The position numbers were made by a program, and so were the translations under genes. The notes under the pieces are model-generated. The model was not told the origin of the DNA. It was given only the letters and a program-made list of their open reading frames with translations, and ran no database searches. A stretch of 32,619 bases of DNA from Bradyrhizobium sp. (GTDB taxonomy: Bacteria; Pseudomonadota; Alphaproteobacteria; Rhizobiales; Xanthobacteraceae): assembly GCA_018971675.1 (NCBI GenBank), contig JAGXAF010000011.1:1-32619 (forward strand), read 5' to 3'. This document shows positions 8,967 through 19,537 of the stretch, one piece after another (within the stretch, counting starts at the first letter, position 1; each line of letters opens with the position of its first letter).

Positions 8967-10232
8967 TCAGGAAGCCGACGCTGAGTCCGCGCGGACCGTC
9001 GGGTCGACAAAGATCCTGTAAGGCTGGGCGGCGGCGAACATGCCCCACATCGCTCCCAGCATCATCCAGAAGTGCCGCCAGTGGTCGGTGTCGATGATAA
9101 AGCTTTCGCCGACGGTGCCGAGGAAGGCTGCGAAGATCGCCAGATAGGTGCGCTGCCAGGGCACGCGGACGAAGATGTGCCGGAACCCGGTGATGACAGT
9201 GATGAACACCAGCGCGGGGTAGCAGACGCCGGAAAGCCAGCCGCCGGACATGAACGCGTTCAAATAGGAATTGTGCGTGTCCTCCGGGAAATAGGTGTGG
9301 AACTGGAGCGGACCAATGCCGAACGGCAAATCGAGCGCCATCTGGGCGCCGAGGATGTGCCGACCAAACCTACCGAAGCGGCCCTCGTCATAGCTTTGGT
9401 CGAAGCTCGCGCGCTGGTTGAACATCTCGCGGACGGAATCGAACGACAGCAGCACCGCCAGCAGCGCGGCGACGACAATAACGGCCGCGATCGTCGTCAG
9501 CACGATGCGGGAGCGTTGCGTGGATAGCGGACTGGTCACGACCATCATTGCCAGCATGAAGGCGGAGGTGAGAATAAGCCCGCCCCATGCCGCGCGCGAA
9601 AACGCCAGCAGAATCGCCAGCGCCATGACGCCGAACGCGATGGCGCTGCGAAAGGATTTGCCGAACCGGTCGGAGACCACGCTCTGGAGTACGAACAGTG
9701 CCGGCAGGATCAGGAACGCGCCCAGCACGTTGGGGTCCTTGAAGGTGCCGCGCGCGCGTTCATACAACGTCAAGAGATCATGCTCGCCGGGCACCAGATT
9801 GAAATAACCGGCGATCGCCGCCAGCGATGCGATCATGGCGCCCGTCACCAGCCCACGGCGCAGCATGTCGAGCCGCGCCTCGGTATCGTCCGCCAGCACC
9901 ATGGCGAAGAACAATACGGTCACGGCCATGTACCAGGAGGTCGCGATCCAGTCAGTGACCTCGGGGTGATCGAAAAAAGGGATGGCGCTGATCGAATATC
10001 CGATATTGAGCAGGATCAGCAACGCCAGCAGGGGCATAAAAACCAGCCGCAGCCGCATGCCCGTGGCAAAAAAGATCACGGTGGCGACAAGCGTCGAGAA
10101 TTCGTAGGGACTGGGCTCGATGAAGACGACGGCACCGGACGCGCCGACCAGCCACAGCAGCGCGCGTTGCAAGGCGAGAACGCCGGACGCCGCCGACGGC
10201 AGAACAGTATCGTCGATCGCCGCATACGCCAT
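8967..10232 (-). CDS. O-antigen ligase/polymerase (Wzy-like) membrane protein
   Basis: Multi-TM with Wzy_C-type motif YFPEDTHNSYLNAFMSGGWLSGVCYPALV. Confidence 0.85.
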   Translation of the reverse strand: MAYAAIDDTVLPSAASGVLALQRALLWLVGASGAVVFIEPSPYEFSTLVATVIFFATGMRLRLVFMPLLALLILLNIGYSISAIPFFDHPEVTDWIATSWYMAVTVLFFAMVLADDTEARLDMLRRGLVTGAMIASLAAIAGYFNLVPGEHDLLTLYERARGTFKDPNVLGAFLILPALFVLQSVVSDRFGKSFRSAIAFGVMALAILLAFSRAAWGGLILTSAFMLAMMVVTSPLSTQRSRIVLTTIAAVIVVAALLAVLLSFDSVREMFNQRASFDQSYDEGRFGRFGRHILGAQMALDLPFGIGPLQFHTYFPEDTHNSYLNAFMSGGWLSGVCYPALVFITVITGFRHIFVRVPWQRTYLAIFAAFLGTVGESFIIDTDHWRHFWMMLGAMWGMFAAAQPYRIFVDPTVRADSASAS

Positions 10233-10346: not shown

Positions 10347-10433
10347 ATTCTTGTTTTGACGCGTTTTCCTTACGCGAACCGGTATCCATCCACGGATCAG
10401 GTCCGAGGGCATGCTTCGCTCGAAAACGCTCTA
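10347..10433 (-). repeat. Dispersed repeat, family B, copy 1
   Basis: Minus-strand TAGAGCGTTTTCGAGCGAAGCATGCCCTCGGACCTGATCCGTGGATGGATACCGGTTCGCGTAAGGAAAACGCGTCAAAACAAGAAT; near-identical to 29376..29461. Confidence 0.9.
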
Positions 10434-12053
10434 GTAGGCGTTCTCGTTATTCGCGATCAAGGCCAGCGGCGTCTTGAAAAGAATGTACAGATCGAACAGC
10501 ACCGACCAGTTCTCGATGTAATAGAGGTCGAACTCGACGCGCTTCTGGATCTTTTCCTCGTTGTCGATCTCGCCGCGCCAGCCGTTGATCTGCGCCCAGC
10601 CGGTAATTCCGGGCTTGACGCGGTGGCGGGCAAAATAGCCGTCGACGGCTTCGTCGAACAACCGGGTCCGGACCTTGCCCTGAACCGCATGCGGCCTCGG
10701 GCCGACCAGCGAGAGATTGCCCTTGAACACCACGTTGAAGAGCTGCGGCAGCTCGTCGAGGCTGGTCTTGCGGATGAAGCGTCCGACGCGGGTGACGCGG
10801 CTGTCGTTTTTGGTCACGACCGTGGAGGCGAGCGGATCGGCCTGGTCGTGATAGAGCGAGCGGAACTTGAAGACGTCGATGCGATCATTGTTGAAGCCGA
10901 ACCGCTTCTGACGGAACAGCACCGGTCCCGGGCTGTCGAGTTTGACCGCTAGCGCGACCAGCGCCATCACCGGGGCGGCGAGCAGCAGCACGATCGCGCC
11001 GACGAAATGGTCGAACAGCCATTTCATTACCAGATCCCAGTCGGTGATCGGCGGCTCGAACACGTCGAGGGTGGGCACCGTGCCGAGATAGGAATAGGCG
11101 CGGGGGCGGAAGCGCAATTTGTTGCTATGGGCGGAAAGCCGGATATCGACCGGCAGCACCCACAGCTTCTTCAGCATGTCGAGGATCCGCGTCTCCGCCG
11201 AGATCGGCAGTGCGAACAGCACGAGATCGATGCGGGTACGGCGGGCGAACTCGATGATGTCGTCGACCTTGCCAAGTTTCGGCGCGCCGGCGCAGGTATC
11301 GAGCGCGCGGCTGTCATTGCGATCGTCAAACACGCCGAGGATATCGATGTCGGAATCGGGCTGCGCGCGCAGCGTCTCGACCAGCTTTTCGCCGTTCTGG
11401 TCCGAGCCGACGATGACGGTGCGGCGGTCCAGCCTGCCTTCGCGCGCCCAACTTCGCACCATCGCGCGCAGCACCAGCCGCTCGGCGATCAATGCGGCGA
11501 GACCCACAAAGAAGAACGCCGAGAGCCAGAGCCGTGGGGCCTCGCCGCCAGGCCTGGCGAAGAACGACGCGCCGGTGAAAAGCAGGAACACGAATGTCCA
11601 GGCTGAGATCATCCGCGTCATCCGCCGGAGCTGGCCGCGAAACGCCTGTATTTCATAGATGTCGGAGGCCTGGAAGCAGACCACGGCGGCGGCGCTTATG
11701 CCGAAAGTGGCTGCGATATATTCCCAACTGAATCCATTGAGCGGCGCGACAAAGGCCAGATGCAGCGCGATGCCGACCATATTCAGCAGCAAGAGATCGA
11801 CGAGCCGGACCGCGCCCACGATCACGACGGCCGAATAGGCCCGGCGGACTTTCTGATTGACGACCGCAAGTGCTGCCTGCGACAGCCGGCGGCGGCGTTC
11901 GATGCGTGGTTGATCCGCCGTCGCGGCGGTAGCAGCGGCCGTGGTTGCGGCATTCAGCATGGAGCGTGCGTTGATCGGTTCCACTGACGCTGGCCTGTTC
12001 TTGCGCGTGCATTCCTCGATGCATGCGAGAAGGCATAATGCCCCCTGCTTCAC
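10431..12053 (-). CDS. Undecaprenyl-phosphate hexose phosphotransferase (polyprenyl glycosylphosphotransferase, WcaJ/HfsE-like)
   Basis: N-terminal TM helices plus CoA-binding-like fold; C-terminal [11 protein letters not shown]...[32 protein letters not shown]...[17 protein letters not shown]. True start may be internal Met at 11960. Confidence 0.93.
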
Positions 12054-12101: not shown

Positions 12102-13235
12102 TTAACGATTCGCAAACGCGTCGCGGTAGCCGGCCAGTACGCCTTCGACCATCGCCTTCTGCGAAAAATGCTGGAAAACCCTCTCGCGAAGCGCTTTCGC
12201 GCGCGTCAGCGCGCCAGCCGGATTCTCCAGCGCGACCTTGACGGCATCAGCCATGGCGGATGCCATGCTTGGCGTGAACAGCGCGTCGGTATGGGGCCCG
12301 AAAATCTCGGGGATACCGCCAACATTGGCTGCTACCATGGGAATTCCGGCCGCCGCCGCCTCGATCACCACATAGGGCATCGAATCCCCGCGCGACGGCA
12401 CGACCAGCAGCGATCCCTTCGAAAAGGCAAAACGCGCCTTGACGTGACCAATGAAGCGCGCAGCTTCGCCAAGACCCAGTCGCTGAACTTGCGCCTTGAT
12501 CGCTTCGGTTTCCTCGCCGTCGCCGGCCAGCGTCAGCGTGACTGGCAGGCCGCCGCTGCGCAGCCGCGCCACCGCGTCCACCAGGAGGTCCGCCCCCTTG
12601 ATATGCCGGAACTCGCCGACATAGACGATATCGGTGGCATCTTGCGCTTTCGTGATCGGATCGAACTCTGCGGCGGCGACGCCGTTGAATACGCAGCGTA
12701 CCGGGCGTTTTGGCGTGCCGATGATGCGTTGATAGGTGTCGCGAGCGAATGCGCTTTCGAACAGGAACAGGTCGGTCCGGTTCATCAGCGCGCGTTCGAG
12801 GCGGCTGTAGAATGCGCCCATGATCGTGTTCGGCGGGTAGTGCAGCGAACCGCCATGCGGCGTGTAGACACGGATAGTCCGCTTCGAGGTGCCCTTCAAC
12901 CGTACGAAAGCGCCGGCTTTGGCGCCGTGGCCGTGCAGCACGTCCGGTTTCAACCGCTGGATCAATTGCATCATCCGTCCCCACACCACGGCATCCGTCG
13001 GGTGCGGTTCGCGGTGGATGGGGATGCGATGCACGCCGAGTTTCAGGCGCGGCGCGATTTCGGCCAGCGCCGCAGTCCCGCGCTCGCCGCCGGTCAGGCC
13101 GTCGGCGATCAGGCCGACATGGTGGCCGCGGTCGGCCTGGCCGTTGGCGACGTCGAGAATATGGCGGAAGATTCCGCCAACCGGCGCGCGCACCGCGTGC
13201 AGGATACGGAGCGGCTGTTCGGGAATTTCAGGCAT
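12102..13235 (-). CDS. Glycosyltransferase family 4 protein
   Basis: MPEIPEQPLRILHAVRAPVGGIFRHILDVANGQADRGHHVGLIADG...VVPSRGDSMPYVVIEAAAAGIPMVAANVGGIPEIF; GT4-type donor site. Confidence 0.93.
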   Translation of the reverse strand: MPEIPEQPLRILHAVRAPVGGIFRHILDVANGQADRGHHVGLIADGLTGGERGTAALAEIAPRLKLGVHRIPIHREPHPTDAVVWGRMMQLIQRLKPDVLHGHGAKAGAFVRLKGTSKRTIRVYTPHGGSLHYPPNTIMGAFYSRLERALMNRTDLFLFESAFARDTYQRIIGTPKRPVRCVFNGVAAAEFDPITKAQDATDIVYVGEFRHIKGADLLVDAVARLRSGGLPVTLTLAGDGEETEAIKAQVQRLGLGEAARFIGHVKARFAFSKGSLLVVPSRGDSMPYVVIEAAAAGIPMVAANVGGIPEIFGPHTDALFTPSMASAMADAVKVALENPAGALTRAKALRERVFQHFSQKAMVEGVLAGYRDAFANR

Positions 13236-13450
13236 GATCAGAGCCAGCGCTCCGCGACGAGCGCGCCTTGCATCGAAGGCCCCAGAAGGAAGCGTTGATT
13301 CCGATTAAGGGCTGCCATGGTTAACAAAGCGTGACCGCAGGGTAGCAGCCTCAACCGGCAGTTGGATTTCCGCCGGGTTAACCCCGCAGCAACCATAATG
13401 GAGTGTATTCGACCGAGGTCAGTGGGGCTGTGCGTCTGCGGGAGTGTGGG

Positions 13451-15700
13451 ATGCGTTTGGCGTTCTGGCGTACCAGCAAGGGCACTTCTGCCGAGGAAAA
13501 ACCGGCGGTGGAGCGGGTTGTGTCGGAGCCCGCGTCGACCGCTTATGCGTCTGCAACTGGTTTCATCGCCGGCGACATGGATTTGCATGCGCTCGGCCAG
13601 GCATTGCTGCGCAGGAAGCGCTGGATCATCGTCCCGACATTGCTGGCGGCCTTGCTCTCGATCGCCGCGGTCAATCTCGTCACGCCGCGCTATAAGTCCG
13701 AAGCGCGTATCCTGATCGACGGCCGCGAAAACATCTTCCTGCGCCCGAATGGCGAGCGCACGGAAGAACGAAACGCGCTAGACCCCGAAGCCGTTACCAG
13801 CCAGGTCCAGCTTCTGCTGTCGCGCGACCTCGCGCGCGAGATCATCAAGAAGAACAAGTTGGCGGAATTGCCGGAGTTCGATCCGGTGCTGCGCGGCCTG
13901 TCGCCGCTGAAATCGCTGCTGGCGCTGTTTGGGATCGGCCGCGATCCGTTCTCGCTTACGCCGGAAGAGCGGGTGCTCGACGCCTATTTCGATCGCTACA
14001 CCGCTTACGCGGTCGACAAGTCGCGCGTTGTCGTCATCGAATTCCAATCACGCGATCCGGAACTGGCTGCGCGCGTCGCCAACTCGATCGCCGACGGCTA
14101 TCTGGTGCTGCAGCAGAACGCGCGGCAAGAGCAGGCCAAGGCTGCCAGCCAATGGCTGGCCGGCGAGATCGATAATCTGCGCAGGAAGGTCGCTGACGCC
14201 GAATCCCGGGTCGAGGATTTCCGTTCCAAATCGAGTCTCTTCGTTGGCACCAACAACACCACGCTTTCCAACCAGCAGATGGGGGAATTGAACACGCAAC
14301 TGAACAACGCGCGGGCGCTGGAGTCCGACGCCGAGTCGAAAGCGCGCATGATTCGGGAGATGCTGCGGAGCGGCAAACCGATCGAGGCCTCCGAGGTACT
14401 CAATTCCGAACTGATGCGCCGGCTGTCCGAGCAGCGCGTCACACTGCGTGCGCAACTCGCCGAACAATCGGCGACGCTGCTCGACAACCATCCGCGCATC
14501 AAGGAATTGAAGGCGCAGTTGGCGGCGCTTGACGCCCAGATCCGCGACGAGGCCGGCAAGCTCTCGCGCTCGCTGGAAAACGATGCACGCATCGCCGCCG
14601 GCCGCGTCGACAGCCTCAGCGCCAGCCTCGATCAGTTGAAAAAGCAGGCGACCTCGGCCAACGGCCAGGACGTCCAGCTTCGGGCGCTCGAACGCGAGGC
14701 CAAGGCGCAGCGCGATCTGCTGGAGTCCTATCTGGCGAAGTACCGGGAGGCCAACACCCGCGAGAACATCGACGCCGCACCGGCCGACGGTCGCATCATC
14801 TCCCGCGCCAGCGTCTCCAATGCGCCGGCCTATCCGAAGAAATTGCCGATCGTTCTGATCGCGACGCTTGCGACCTTGCTGCTCAGCGCTGGCACCATAG
14901 CGACCGGTGAATTGTTGCGCATGACCGCGCCACGGCTGACGCCGCGCCCGGAAGGTGCTACCGCATCGGTGCGGCCCGTGGCCCGCGCGGATGTGATTGC
15001 CGCTGCCGAGGCCCGCGTCACCGCGCCTGGCCATGCTCCGAGCGCCAGCGAAATCAGCTCTTCCGAGGCCAAATCATCAAAGTCCGCGCCTTCGGCCGAC
15101 CTTTCCGAGATCGAACAGTTCGCCGGGATTCTGCGCGGCGCCGGTGAGGCGGGGCGCAAGGTCACGGTCCTCGGCACTGCCTCGGGCGAGAGCGCCGCCA
15201 TGACGGCGCTGACCCTGGCGCGGCTGCTCGCGCGTGATGCACGGGTGGTACTGGTGGACTTGTCGACGGCCTCGCGGACCGGCTCGGCGATTTCAACCGA
15301 CGCCATTGCGCCGGGACTGGCGGAGCTGATGCTGGGCGAGGCCTCGTTTTCGCAGGTGATTACTCGCGACCGGCAGTCGCGCGCCCATCTCGTTGGCCCA
15401 GGTCCTGGTTCGGACCGCACCTTGCTGCGATCGCCGCGGCTTGCTCTGGCGATCGATGCCCTGCTGCGGGTCTACGATCACGTCTTGCTGGACGCGGGTC
15501 TCGGCTCCGACCTGCCGGCGGAACTTCTGACCGCGCGGGCGCGGGCCGTGGTGGTTCCGGATGCTTCGATGCCCGCGGATGCACGTACCCTGATGTGCGA
15601 TCAATTGAAGGCGGCAGGCTTCTCCGACGTTACCATGCTGGGCAAGCCACAGTCTCCGTCGGACACCGTCGATCCCGGCCCGCAGGTCGTGGCGGCCTGA
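13451..15700 (+). CDS. Wzz/ExoP-type polysaccharide chain-length regulator with divergent BY-kinase-like C-terminal domain
   Basis: Wzz region DLHALGQALLRRKRWIIVPTLLAALLSIAAVNLVTPRYKSEARILIDGRENIF; coiled coil; second TM; C-terminal KVTVLGTASGESAAMTALTLARLLARDARVVLVDLSTA...DHVLLDAGLGSDLPAELL. Confidence 0.9.
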   Translation: MRLAFWRTSKGTSAEEKPAVERVVSEPASTAYASATGFIAGDMDLHALGQALLRRKRWIIVPTLLAALLSIAAVNLVTPRYKSEARILIDGRENIFLRPNGERTEERNALDPEAVTSQVQLLLSRDLAREIIKKNKLAELPEFDPVLRGLSPLKSLLALFGIGRDPFSLTPEERVLDAYFDRYTAYAVDKSRVVVIEFQSRDPELAARVANSIADGYLVLQQNARQEQAKAASQWLAGEIDNLRRKVADAESRVEDFRSKSSLFVGTNNTTLSNQQMGELNTQLNNARALESDAESKARMIREMLRSGKPIEASEVLNSELMRRLSEQRVTLRAQLAEQSATLLDNHPRIKELKAQLAALDAQIRDEAGKLSRSLENDARIAAGRVDSLSASLDQLKKQATSANGQDVQLRALEREAKAQRDLLESYLAKYREANTRENIDAAPADGRIISRASVSNAPAYPKKLPIVLIATLATLLLSAGTIATGELLRMTAPRLTPRPEGATASVRPVARADVIAAAEARVTAPGHAPSASEISSSEAKSSKSAPSADLSEIEQFAGILRGAGEAGRKVTVLGTASGESAAMTALTLARLLARDARVVLVDLSTASRTGSAISTDAIAPGLAELMLGEASFSQVITRDRQSRAHLVGPGPGSDRTLLRSPRLALAIDALLRVYDHVLLDAGLGSDLPAELLTARARAVVVPDASMPADARTLMCDQLKAAGFSDVTMLGKPQSPSDTVDPGPQVVAA

Positions 15701-15711
15701 TCGCGACCGAT

Positions 15712-16902
15712 CTAGCGAAACGCGCTGCGCAGTCTCTGCGCCATCTGCAGAAGCGCCGGATTGTGCTTCACCACGTGCTTGGCGCGGTTGATGCCGGACA
15801 TCGCCGCCGCAGCGAGCCGGCCGCGCGGCGTTAGCGCAATGAAGCTGTCGAAGATCGGCTCGTCGCTCTTGCAGAACAACCGCTTGTAGTCGTCCGATCC
15901 GATCCCGAGGTCGAGCGCCTCGTAGCCCAGTCCGGCATAATGATCGACGATGTCGCGCATCAGGATCAGTCCGGGACTGTGGCGTGAATTCTCCGACATC
16001 GTGTAGGTGTTGAACATCATCGAGAAGCGATGGCCGTCGGCGACGCCCGCGAACATCGCGATGACCTCGGCGTCGCATTCCAGCGCATGAATATCGATCG
16101 CGTGACCGCCGCCGGCGAGCGGTGCCAGGCAGGCACTGCGGATGAAGCTCTCGACGCCGGGTTCGGCGAATACATTTGGCAGCTTCTGTTCGGCCATCCG
16201 TAGCGGCTTGATGCGGAAAAACGCATCGAGCAGCCGTTTGATCGCGGCTCCGTCCGAAGCGATGCCGTAACGATAGCCGGGCAGGGCCTTCAGCTTGCGC
16301 TCCTTGCTCCTGAGGCGGCCACGAAGCGAATTGCTGATCCGCGCCGCCGGTTCGGCACCGGGCGCCATCGTCATCAGCGGACAATCGTTGACGGAGGTCT
16401 GGTGCGGCAGCAGCGCCATCGGGTTCTGCAGGTCGCGCCAGCGCGCCGGTTGCTGGTGCAGCGCCAGCACGTCGGCTCGTGCGTGCTCGTGGATGGCCGA
16501 CATGAGCGCGTCGAGATCGGCTTCGGTGACGCTGGGTGCGAACTCGCGGTCCCACAGCGCCATGTTGAAGGTTGCGTGCTTGCCGCCCATGAAGCTCGCG
16601 ATGCGAACGCCGTGTTCGTGCCGGAGCGTAAGCGGCAGCAGCAATAGTGGCCGATCCTCCCTGTCACGGGCGACGACGATGAAGGGCGAAAGGTTTTCGC
16701 GTTCACCGACCTGCGATTGCCATGGGCTGAGGAAATCGAACCGCTGATAGGGCGTCGAGAAATGCCGCTCGCCTTCGAGGCTGCGCCAGATCGTTTCGAC
16801 CCGGCCGAGATCGCCGAAAATATCGACGCCGGCGATGCGGCCTGGTTCCAACCGTGCCGCCGCTTCCGCCATCCGGCTTTCGGTCGCGGCCGCCATGGAC
16901 AT
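15712..16902 (-). CDS. GNAT/FemAB-like (BioF2/CelD-type) N-acyltransferase
   Basis: EPGVESFIRSACLAPLAGGGHAIDIHALECDAEVIAMFAGVADGHRFSMMFNTYTMSENSRHSPGLILMRDIVDHYAGLGYEALDLGIGSDDYKRLFCK is typical of CelD/BioF2-like acyltransferases. Confidence 0.85.
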   Translation of the reverse strand: MSMAAATESRMAEAAARLEPGRIAGVDIFGDLGRVETIWRSLEGERHFSTPYQRFDFLSPWQSQVGERENLSPFIVVARDREDRPLLLLPLTLRHEHGVRIASFMGGKHATFNMALWDREFAPSVTEADLDALMSAIHEHARADVLALHQQPARWRDLQNPMALLPHQTSVNDCPLMTMAPGAEPAARISNSLRGRLRSKERKLKALPGYRYGIASDGAAIKRLLDAFFRIKPLRMAEQKLPNVFAEPGVESFIRSACLAPLAGGGHAIDIHALECDAEVIAMFAGVADGHRFSMMFNTYTMSENSRHSPGLILMRDIVDHYAGLGYEALDLGIGSDDYKRLFCKSDEPIFDSFIALTPRGRLAAAAMSGINRAKHVVKHNPALLQMAQRLRSAFR

Positions 16903-17004
16903 TTAAAAGCTCGCCTGAGGGAATATTTGTTTGGCGTTGCCCGAACTTTGCAAAGAAATGTCAACAAAGGGTAATGACGATAAGGCAGCGCGAAGCGCTA
17001 TCTG

Positions 17005-18114
17005 GTGCATGGAAAGGCGAGGCGGTTGTCCGACGTCGGATTTTGGCTACGCGCCAGGGTGGAACTCGCTTATTTCAGCGGCTACGCCTCGATCATGCAG
17101 CGGCACACCGGCGGCGTCGGTGTCGTGCTGCGCTTTCAGCGCGTGCGGCCGCGCCGCGGCGATCGTTTTCAGCCGCTCAAATCGGCGGAAATCACCCCCC
17201 GATTTCTTGACCAGATCATCGTTGCGCTGAAACACTGGAAATTTGATATCGTCTCGTCCGACGAAGTCTGCCGGCGAGCGGTGACGCTGGCTTCGCCCCG
17301 TCGGTTTGTCTGCCTGACCTTCGACGGCGCCAGCAAGGATCTGATCACATCGGCCTATCCGGTGCTGTCGCAACACCGGGTGCCTTTCACGGTTTACCTG
17401 CCGACCGCATTTCCGGACGGGGTCGGCGAAGCCTGGTGGCTGGCGCTCGAAGCGGTCATCGCGCGGGAAAACCGTGTCAGCCTGGTGATCGACCGCAAGG
17501 AATTGCATTTCAATATTCCGAATGCAGCGGAAAAATACCAGCTCTATCATTTTCTCGAAAGCTGGATGCGCTCGCTGGCGGCGCCCGATCTGTCGGTGGC
17601 GATCAACGATCTCTGCAAGCGATATTCGGTGGACCTTGCGGCGCTCTCGCGCGCTTCGTCGCTGGACTGGAGCGATCTGGCGAGGCTGGCGGCCGATCCG
17701 CTGGTGACGATCGGAAGCGCGACCGTGAATTACCCTGTGCTGTCCAACCTGAAGAACGACACCGCGCAGCGCGAGATGATGATGGGTGCGGCGGTAGCGC
17801 GCGCGGTGTTCCAGCGGGAGGTCAGGCATTTCGCCTATCCGTTCGGCGACGCCGCCTCCTTTCGCCGGCAACATGCCGCGATGGCCGAGGAGGCGGGCTT
17901 TGTCAGTGCGGCGTCGGCGATATCGGGCGTGGTCGAGGCGGCGGGCCGGACCAGTCTTTACGCCCTGCCGCGTATCTCCTGGGACGGCCGGCTCCGGTCG
18001 CTGCGCGCGCTGCGCGTGATGCTCTCGGGCGCAGTGTTGCCGCGGCCGGCCATGCCGCCGCCGACCGGAACAGGCGACCTCCGGTCAGAGACACGACCGG
18101 ATGCGGCGTTTTGA
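17005..18114 (+). CDS. Polysaccharide deacetylase (NodB-fold) family protein, probably catalytically divergent
   Basis: VCLTFDGASKDLITSAYPVLSQHRVPFTVYLPTAF; LVTIGSATVNYPVLSNL; HFAYPFGDAASFRRQ; YALPRISWDGR. Start uncertain (GTG at 17005 or 17059). Confidence 0.85.
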   Translation: MHGKARRLSDVGFWLRARVELAYFSGYASIMQRHTGGVGVVLRFQRVRPRRGDRFQPLKSAEITPRFLDQIIVALKHWKFDIVSSDEVCRRAVTLASPRRFVCLTFDGASKDLITSAYPVLSQHRVPFTVYLPTAFPDGVGEAWWLALEAVIARENRVSLVIDRKELHFNIPNAAEKYQLYHFLESWMRSLAAPDLSVAINDLCKRYSVDLAALSRASSLDWSDLARLAADPLVTIGSATVNYPVLSNLKNDTAQREMMMGAAVARAVFQREVRHFAYPFGDAASFRRQHAAMAEEAGFVSAASAISGVVEAAGRTSLYALPRISWDGRLRSLRALRVMLSGAVLPRPAMPPPTGTGDLRSETRPDAAF

Positions 18115-18115
18115 G

Positions 18116-18322
18116 TTAGGCGTCGGGCCGCGCCATCCAGCTGACGATCGGCATCGCCGGCAGCACCCAGCCGATCCCGGCTACCACGTAAAAGATGGCC
18201 TGCAGCAGCCTGGAACTCGCCAGCCACGGGGTCTGCGCCGCTGTCATTCCCAACAGCGACCACACCACGACCAGTAGCAACAATGCGAGGGTTCCGATGA
18301 ATTTGCGGGTTCGTATCGCCAT
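18116..18322 (-). CDS. DUF2842 domain-containing small membrane protein
   Basis: MAIRTRKFIGTLALLLLVVVWSLLGMTAAQTPWLASSRLLQAIFYVVAGIGWVLPAMPIVSWMARPDA; two TM segments. Confidence 0.75.
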   Translation of the reverse strand: MAIRTRKFIGTLALLLLVVVWSLLGMTAAQTPWLASSRLLQAIFYVVAGIGWVLPAMPIVSWMARPDA

Positions 18323-18433
18323 GCCGGAAAGGTGCGGTTTGCCTAAGGGAGGCCTTGCGCCCGGGAAGAGGCGGACTATAAGTGCCACGCCAATTCATTC
18401 AAGCAGTACCGTTTGCCAGGCTCGACTTCAAAA

Positions 18434-19537
18434 ATGACCCTGTATTCCGCGTATTCCGCACAAAAAGCCCCAGCAACGACCGCGGTCCGGTGGTGGTTGC
18501 TGTCGATGGCGGCTCTGATTGCGATCATGGTGCTGGTCGGGGGGGCGACACGCCTCACCGAGTCCGGCCTATCGATCACCGAATGGAAGCCGGTCACGGG
18601 CGCGTTGCCGCCTCTCAATAACGAGCAGTGGTCAGAGGCCTTCGACGGCTACAAGGCGATCCCGCAATATCGCGAGCTCAACGCCGGCATGACTCTGGCC
18701 CAGTTCAAGTCCATCTTCTGGTGGGAGTGGAGCCACCGCCTGCTGGGACGCATGATCGGCGTGGTCTATCTGCTGCCGTTCCTCTGGTTCATGTGGCGGG
18801 GGTCGCTCGGCGGCGAATTGAAGCGCCGGTTATGGGTGATCTTCGCGCTCGGCGGGCTGCAGGGTGCAGTCGGCTGGTGGATGGTGGCGTCAGGCTTGTC
18901 GCAGCGGGTCGAGGTCTCGCAATATCGTCTCGCCACTCATCTGGTGCTGGCGCTGCTGATCTACTCGGCGATCGTCTGGACCCTGCGCCGGCTGGTGGTC
19001 GGGCCACCTGCCGTGGCGACCGCAAGGTTGAAAGCCACAAGTGTGATTTTGCTCGTGCTGACCTTCGTGCAGCTCTATCTGGGCGCGCTGGTCGCGGGTC
19101 TGCGCGCGGGAAAGGTCTACAACACTTGGCCCGATATCGACGGCGGGTTTATTCCCACCACGGCACGGTTGTTCTTTGAACAGCCGTGGTGGCGCAACCT
19201 GTTCGACAATACGCTCACCGTGCAGTTCGAGCATCGCATGGTCGCCTATACGCTGTTTGTGCTGGCGATCCTGCATGCCGTCGACGCGATCCGCGCGCGG
19301 GCCGATGGAACTGTCGTCAGGGGAGCGTTAGGGCTGGCGGCCGTGGTTACGCTGCAGGCCACGCTGGGCATTCTGACGCTGCTCAATCAGGCGCCGATCG
19401 ATCTTGCGCTGACGCATCAGGCGGTGGCGATCGCTGTCCTGACGTTTGCTGTCCTGCAGGCCGAGCGTCTGGCGGCGCGTCGCCAACCGAACGCGTTGGC
19501 ACAGGACCGGCCAATGCCGATCGGCCAGCCCGGTTGA
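18434..19537 (+). CDS. ctaA: Heme A synthase (COX15/CtaA)
   Basis: [35 protein letters not shown]...[26 protein letters not shown]...[11 protein letters not shown]...[11 protein letters not shown]; canonical COX15 His motifs. Confidence 0.95.

Follow-up and report, generated by a model that had tools for sequence, protein, structure and literature searches.

A conserved pseudo-deacetylase without its metal site in a probable polar-adhesin cluster of Bradyrhizobium and related genera

In the Caulobacter holdfast system, the deacetylase HfsH was reported to be cytosolic, and the N-acyltransferase HfsK was proposed to acylate the amines that HfsH exposes (PMC5362036). In Bradyrhizobium ottawaense, the core upp cluster comprises uppABDEF, with uppC located apart, and polar root attachment needs uppC/uppE (PMC12727192); the corresponding genes of Rhodopseudomonas palustris are RPA2750 (uppE) and RPA4833 (uppC) (PMC9133744). 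Carbohydrate esterase family 4 (CE4) pseudoenzymes are already known, e.g., BA0150, EcCDA and BA3943. None was found, in the literature searched, in an adhesin cluster of an alphaproteobacterium whose sister genera carry an intact counterpart in the same slot.

The window (the whole stretch of Bradyrhizobium sp. DNA analyzed, 32,619 nucleotides) harbored an exopolysaccharide cluster with the following features, the last two of which, flanking markers of the deacetylase slot, were assigned by reading the sequence:

8967 to 10232, minus strand: Wzy_C / O-antigen-ligase-type polymerase
10431 to 12053, minus strand: WcaJ/HfsE/UppE-type polyprenyl-phosphate glycosylphosphotransferase
12102 to 13235, minus strand: GT4 glycosyltransferase
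13403 to 15700, plus strand: Wzz/GumC-type chain-length/export protein
15712 to 16902, minus strand: GNAT acyltransferase (PF13480, HfsK-like), divergent neighbor of the pseudo-deacetylase gene
16942 to 16978, plus strand: strongly conserved element in the non-coding gap from the GNAT gene to the divergent pseudo-deacetylase gene
17026 to 18114, plus strand: pseudo-deacetylase coding sequence, NodB2-type fold, metal site lost (the mechanical open reading frame begins at GTG 17005)
18116 to 18388, minus strand: putative DUF2842-type small protein
18413 to 19537, plus strand: putative COX15/CtaA-type gene

The HfsE/UppE-type transferase, Wzy, Wzz/GumC, GT4 and GNAT genes thus occurred together as a set of the unipolar polysaccharide (UPP)/holdfast type. 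Across the family, the conserved gene order was UppE/WcaJ, GT4, Wza (in some genomes), GumC/Wzz, GNAT, deacetylase, DUF2842 and COX15. The initiating transferase scored strongly, above the cut-off of the WcaJ model and below that of the HfsE model. The Wza gene was absent from the window and located on another contig (G000:C239); it lay inside the cluster in three genomes (G015, G124 and G155) and, in three others that belong to a Rhodopseudomonas-like genus (g52), close to the end of the chromosome. The latter position fits uppC of R. palustris, since RPA4833 carries a very late locus tag and would lie there. Given its gene content and position, and especially the HfsE/WcaJ-type initiating transferase and the placement of Wza, the cluster is probably the locus of the UPP adhesin, a polar root-attachment glue. 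The sequence-only reading had set a pseudo-deacetylase in an exopolysaccharide locus, which both the motif loss and the gene content of the cluster support.

The mechanical open reading frame (17005-18114, plus strand) was intact, with 369 codons counted from the GTG. The earlier claim of an intact 369-residue frame therefore stood as to integrity, while its start is probably wrong: judging from aligned orthologues, translation more likely begins at TTG 17026 than at GTG 17005, because a TTG near that point was common to many Bradyrhizobium orthologues and an orthologue at 92% identity had no in-frame GTG at the upstream position. An ATG further upstream (conserved ATGTCAACAAAG) was discarded as the start codon because just 29 of 94 loci had it in frame.

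The product of 17005-18114 is a NodB2-type (PgaB/IcaB/PplD-like) relative of polysaccharide deacetylases. It matched PF01522 with E=8.6e-12 (45.5 bits against a curated cut-off of 23.1), and AlphaFold models (18 sequences used), whose confidence was modest at a mean pLDDT of 59 and 66, had matches below E=0.001 to 13 solved structures. Each of these was a polysaccharide deacetylase of the NodB2 class or a relative (PgaB, IcaB, BpsB, PplD, BC0361, BA0330 and a further B. anthracis protein), so that the NodB fold first recognized from the letters was confirmed by profile score and model matches alike. The N-terminal sequence, read by eye, displayed no recognizable signal peptide, which suggests a cytoplasmic protein.

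The residues of the catalytic site were located as follows (all on the plus strand):

17137 to 17142: motif 5, positions 45-46, Gln-Arg (His-His in canonical relatives); the position-45 His is lost
17323 to 17328: motif 1, positions 107-108; the catalytic-base Asp107 is kept and the metal Asp is replaced by Gly108
17713 to 17733: motif 2, positions 237-243, GSATVNY; the metal His residues are replaced by Ala239 and Tyr243
17971 to 17973: Arg323 of ALPRIS, retained by the pseudo clade and by every canonical relative

Accordingly, the Asp-His-His metal triad was missing (Gly108, Ala239 and Tyr243). The sequence-only reading had correctly identified the loss of the second Asp in TFDGASKD, the replacement of both His residues in GSATVNYPVL and the retention of HFAYPFGD, but its list of altered residues was incomplete, as the loss of the N-terminal motif-5 His had escaped it. 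In the NodB2 class, motif 5 is N-terminal (PMC10967932), and in the profile of canonical relatives LHHVRP aligned with ILMYHAI of PplD; the corresponding RFQRVRP of the window protein, with Gln45, has thereby lost the motif-5 His. With three metal ligands and this His gone, metal-dependent deacetylation by the window protein is very unlikely. The retention of Asp107, Arg323 and the AYPFG and ALPR segments nonetheless argues that the pocket still matters.

Orthologues of the gene were found at 61-74% identity in all 36 same-genus genomes searched beside the window's own and also in one Rhodopseudomonas genome; named relatives such as B. elkanii, B. jicamae, B. liaoningense and B. erythrophlei mark the genus as Bradyrhizobium. 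Further genera of the family harbored orthologues at 46-62% identity, and a more diverged one (41%) was present in G098. A sample of about 300 genomes from the order yielded no member of the pseudo clade outside the family, where the best matches were 39% identical, the motifs having been read for some of them only.

Residues were counted in 119 distinct pseudo orthologues (from Bradyrhizobium, Rhodopseudomonas and related genera) and 69 canonical relatives. The metal Asp was Gly in 119/119 orthologues, and His occupied the first metal position in none of the 119, the second in 4 and the motif-5 position in a single one, against 69/69 canonical relatives for the latter. Canonical relatives kept all five ligand and catalytic residues in every case (69/69), and no intermediate between the two residue sets was seen among the 119 and 69 sequences. 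Asp107, by contrast with the lost metal site, was Asp in 118/119 orthologues, and Arg323 was Arg in 115/116; fold stability alone could account for the conservation of these two residues. On these counts, the loss of the metal site is ancient and clade-wide. The substitutions at the metal ligands, whose conservation the sequence-only reading had left to be checked, were fixed across the clade, and intact residues were confined to other genera or to a separate paralogue. Recurrence of the pattern in 119 distinct orthologues shows that it is not due to chance, and rules out a sequencing error or a recent mutation.

A still-working deacetylase with ligands supplied from shifted positions, the other event by which the original proposal could fail, would need substitute residues. 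A few orthologues had a His at position 46 or 242, which lends this idea weak support, but no alternative ligand set appeared among the clade-conserved columns, neither Asp108 nor His239 had a conserved substitute, and a canonical copy exists in parallel. Such an enzyme is thus highly improbable.

In the tree, which was unrooted and had long branches (L098, L081 and L082), the pseudo sequences, L057 included, all fell on one side of a single branch with SH-aLRT 100. The median NG86 dN/dS of the pseudo-deacetylase was 0.157, versus 0.138 in the relocated canonical paralogue described below, both from pairwise comparisons in which pairs share branches. Values of about 0.16 rule out a pseudogene and show, at the level of the coding sequences, purifying selection on the pseudo-deacetylase. 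In addition, 57 columns were at least 97% conserved in the pseudo clade, and the class-specific Gly261, Trp326 and Asp327 were fixed or nearly so.

The same slot held an intact enzyme in other genera. A canonical deacetylase was found in the same cluster, usually in the same slot, at L083-L087, L091-L097, L100 and L153-L155, as well as in the same cluster of two further families of the order (L099 and L157); the DUF2842, GNAT or COX15 match was missing at some of these loci. With an intact enzyme occupying this slot of the exopolysaccharide cluster in other genera, the window gene would most simply be the in-place descendant of an active-type cluster enzyme, "active" referring here and below to intact motifs, for in-slot and relocated copies alike.

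A second, canonical copy was found at another site, identified by its intact motifs (LHQVRP, LDDGYRD and GAHSITH):

G000:C127, 6295 to 7287 (locus L138, 6172 to 7329): canonical relocated paralogue

It was 37% identical to the window protein over residues 15-344, with the same domain layout, and was flanked by OmpA-like and SDR genes, with no polysaccharide cluster nearby. Enzymes resembling those of aromatic-CoA oxygenation (box) genes also lay beside it. The relocated copies formed one clade of 42 sequences (SH-aLRT 100), whose neighbors in the unrooted tree were canonical enzymes from other genera and families. The second copy may have arisen by duplication, preceding or following the loss of the metal site, or may have been acquired horizontally. 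Among 250 family genomes, 69 of the 71 with the pseudo form also harbored the relocated copy, and 23 had the relocated copy alone (Fisher p about 1e-38, uncorrected for phylogeny; for some genomes the pseudo and paralogue calls of this table were made by identity, residues having been inspected in the 119 pseudo and 69 canonical sequences).

In 22 genomes that lacked the pseudo gene (including G079, G099, G105, G166 and G200; loci L175-L182, L184, L185 and L187-L198), the GNAT gene directly adjoined DUF2842 and WcaJ was still present. No remnant of the pseudo-deacetylase gene was found at these loci. Clean deletion had taken place in several genera, with both the cluster and the relocated intact copy kept, so the pseudo-deacetylase gene is not essential. 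The non-coding element upstream of the gene (16942-16978) bears on these deletions. Its core, TGTCAACAAAGNGTAATGAC, spans 16959-16978, and it contains the near-inverted repeat TGTCA-N11-TGAC and occurred once in each of the three genomes G000, G015 and G008. It was present at 23/24 pseudo-type loci, 11/22 deletion loci, 0/15 paralogue loci and 0/19 canonical loci, the last set including L098, which is in fact pseudo. Presence of the element at half of the deletion loci and at no canonical locus supports deletion of the pseudo gene as a secondary event. The element is possibly an operator or leader of the adhesin cluster.

These deletions, together with the long branches of some sequences and an intact copy elsewhere that could make the dead one redundant, are what might be expected of a decaying duplicate with little function, heading for loss. 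The presence of the gene in every same-genus genome searched, its dN/dS and its strongly conserved columns speak against decay, which we consider improbable.

The best explanation of the whole is that the dead copy acts as a sugar-binding pseudoenzyme modulating adhesin modification, a tentative reading to which we assign a probability of about 0.45. The gene would descend from an HfsH-like polysaccharide deacetylase that was active in a UPP-type polar-adhesin cluster. At the base of the Bradyrhizobium/Rhodopseudomonas group, all three metal ligands and the motif-5 His would have disappeared from the in-cluster copy, and deacetylase function would have stayed with a second, intact copy located elsewhere on the chromosome. 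The dead copy would then have been retained as a cytoplasmic sugar-binding pseudoenzyme, its probable ligand being the same lipid-linked glycan intermediate, held through the preserved pocket (Asp107, Arg323 and the AYPFG loop). It may tune the modification of the adhesin by offering amino-sugar residues to the neighboring HfsK-like GNAT and/or the relocated deacetylase, or by masking them.

Two other roles for a retained protein were weighed, and the sugar-binding modulating role was favored over a pure scaffold, and the latter over a new metal-free reaction. A purely structural protein, stabilizing the biosynthetic complex through a pocket without any role, has a precedent in BA0330 and BA0331, which display no detectable deacetylase activity and, with the catalytic Asp changed, complement mutants (PMC4505593). 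Yet a pure scaffold would have no obvious use for the catalytic Asp and the ALPR Arg, which rank with the best-conserved positions in the clade, and we regard this role as rather unlikely. The same near-invariance of Asp107 and Arg323 despite the lost metal site, as well as the fixation or near-fixation of Gly261, Trp326 and Asp327, would suit a metal-independent reaction (e.g., a cyclase, transacylase or epimerase step) using Asp107, Arg323 and the new Tyr243. SwsB, a CE4 relative without the catalytic base, is a lactam cyclase with no deacetylase activity (PMC12444981), and the NodB-fold protein 3CL6 is metal-independent (PMC10967932). No new acid/base pair was fixed, however: Tyr243 was swapped for Gly, Asn, Ser or His in 12/117 sequences, and position 45 varied in the pseudo clade (Glu, Gln, Asp, Ala and others). 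Such a reaction is therefore a little less likely than the scaffold, and slightly less likely still is its extension to the whole clade, in which the in-cluster deacetylase would have become a new metal-independent UPP-modifying enzyme, with the old activity residing in the relocated copy.

Maintained by selection while an intact copy is present elsewhere, the gene would be a naturally repurposed "dead" enzyme, not a broken gene, and the automatic annotation "polysaccharide deacetylase" is wrong for the pseudo clade. The locus also constitutes a natural experiment, in which one syntenic adhesin-type slot holds an intact enzyme, a conserved dead version or nothing depending on the genus, with an intact copy elsewhere. 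Catalysis and binding in polar-adhesin modification can thereby be separated in the tractable Bradyrhizobium and Rhodopseudomonas.

Among described systems, the HfsH/HfsK pair of the Caulobacter and Hirschia holdfast is alike in having a deacetylase in the polar-adhesin core cluster, an HfsE-type transferase and an HfsK-like GNAT; in the window cluster, the PF13480 GNAT is directly divergent from the deacetylase slot. HfsH differs in keeping all five CE4 motifs (PMC8449245), whereas the window protein is altered in motifs 1, 2 and 5. The best structure matches, PgaB, IcaB, BpsB and PplD (PDB 3VUS, 4F9D, 4WCJ, 5BU6 and 6DQ3), share its fold, motif order and N-terminal position of motif 5, but possess the Asp/His/His metal site that it lacks. 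BA0150 (4M1B), EcCDA (2VYO) and BA3943 (6HM9) likewise have the NodB fold and have been classed as inactive or as pseudoenzymes; the window protein is set apart from them by its NodB2 motif layout, its alphaproteobacterial adhesin-type cluster and the intact same-slot enzyme of related genera. Finally, BA0330 and BA0331 combine the NodB2 fold with a non-enzymatic role, as proposed for the window protein, although both of them are lipoproteins and, in BA0330, the residues for zinc binding and catalysis are still in place (PMC4505593).
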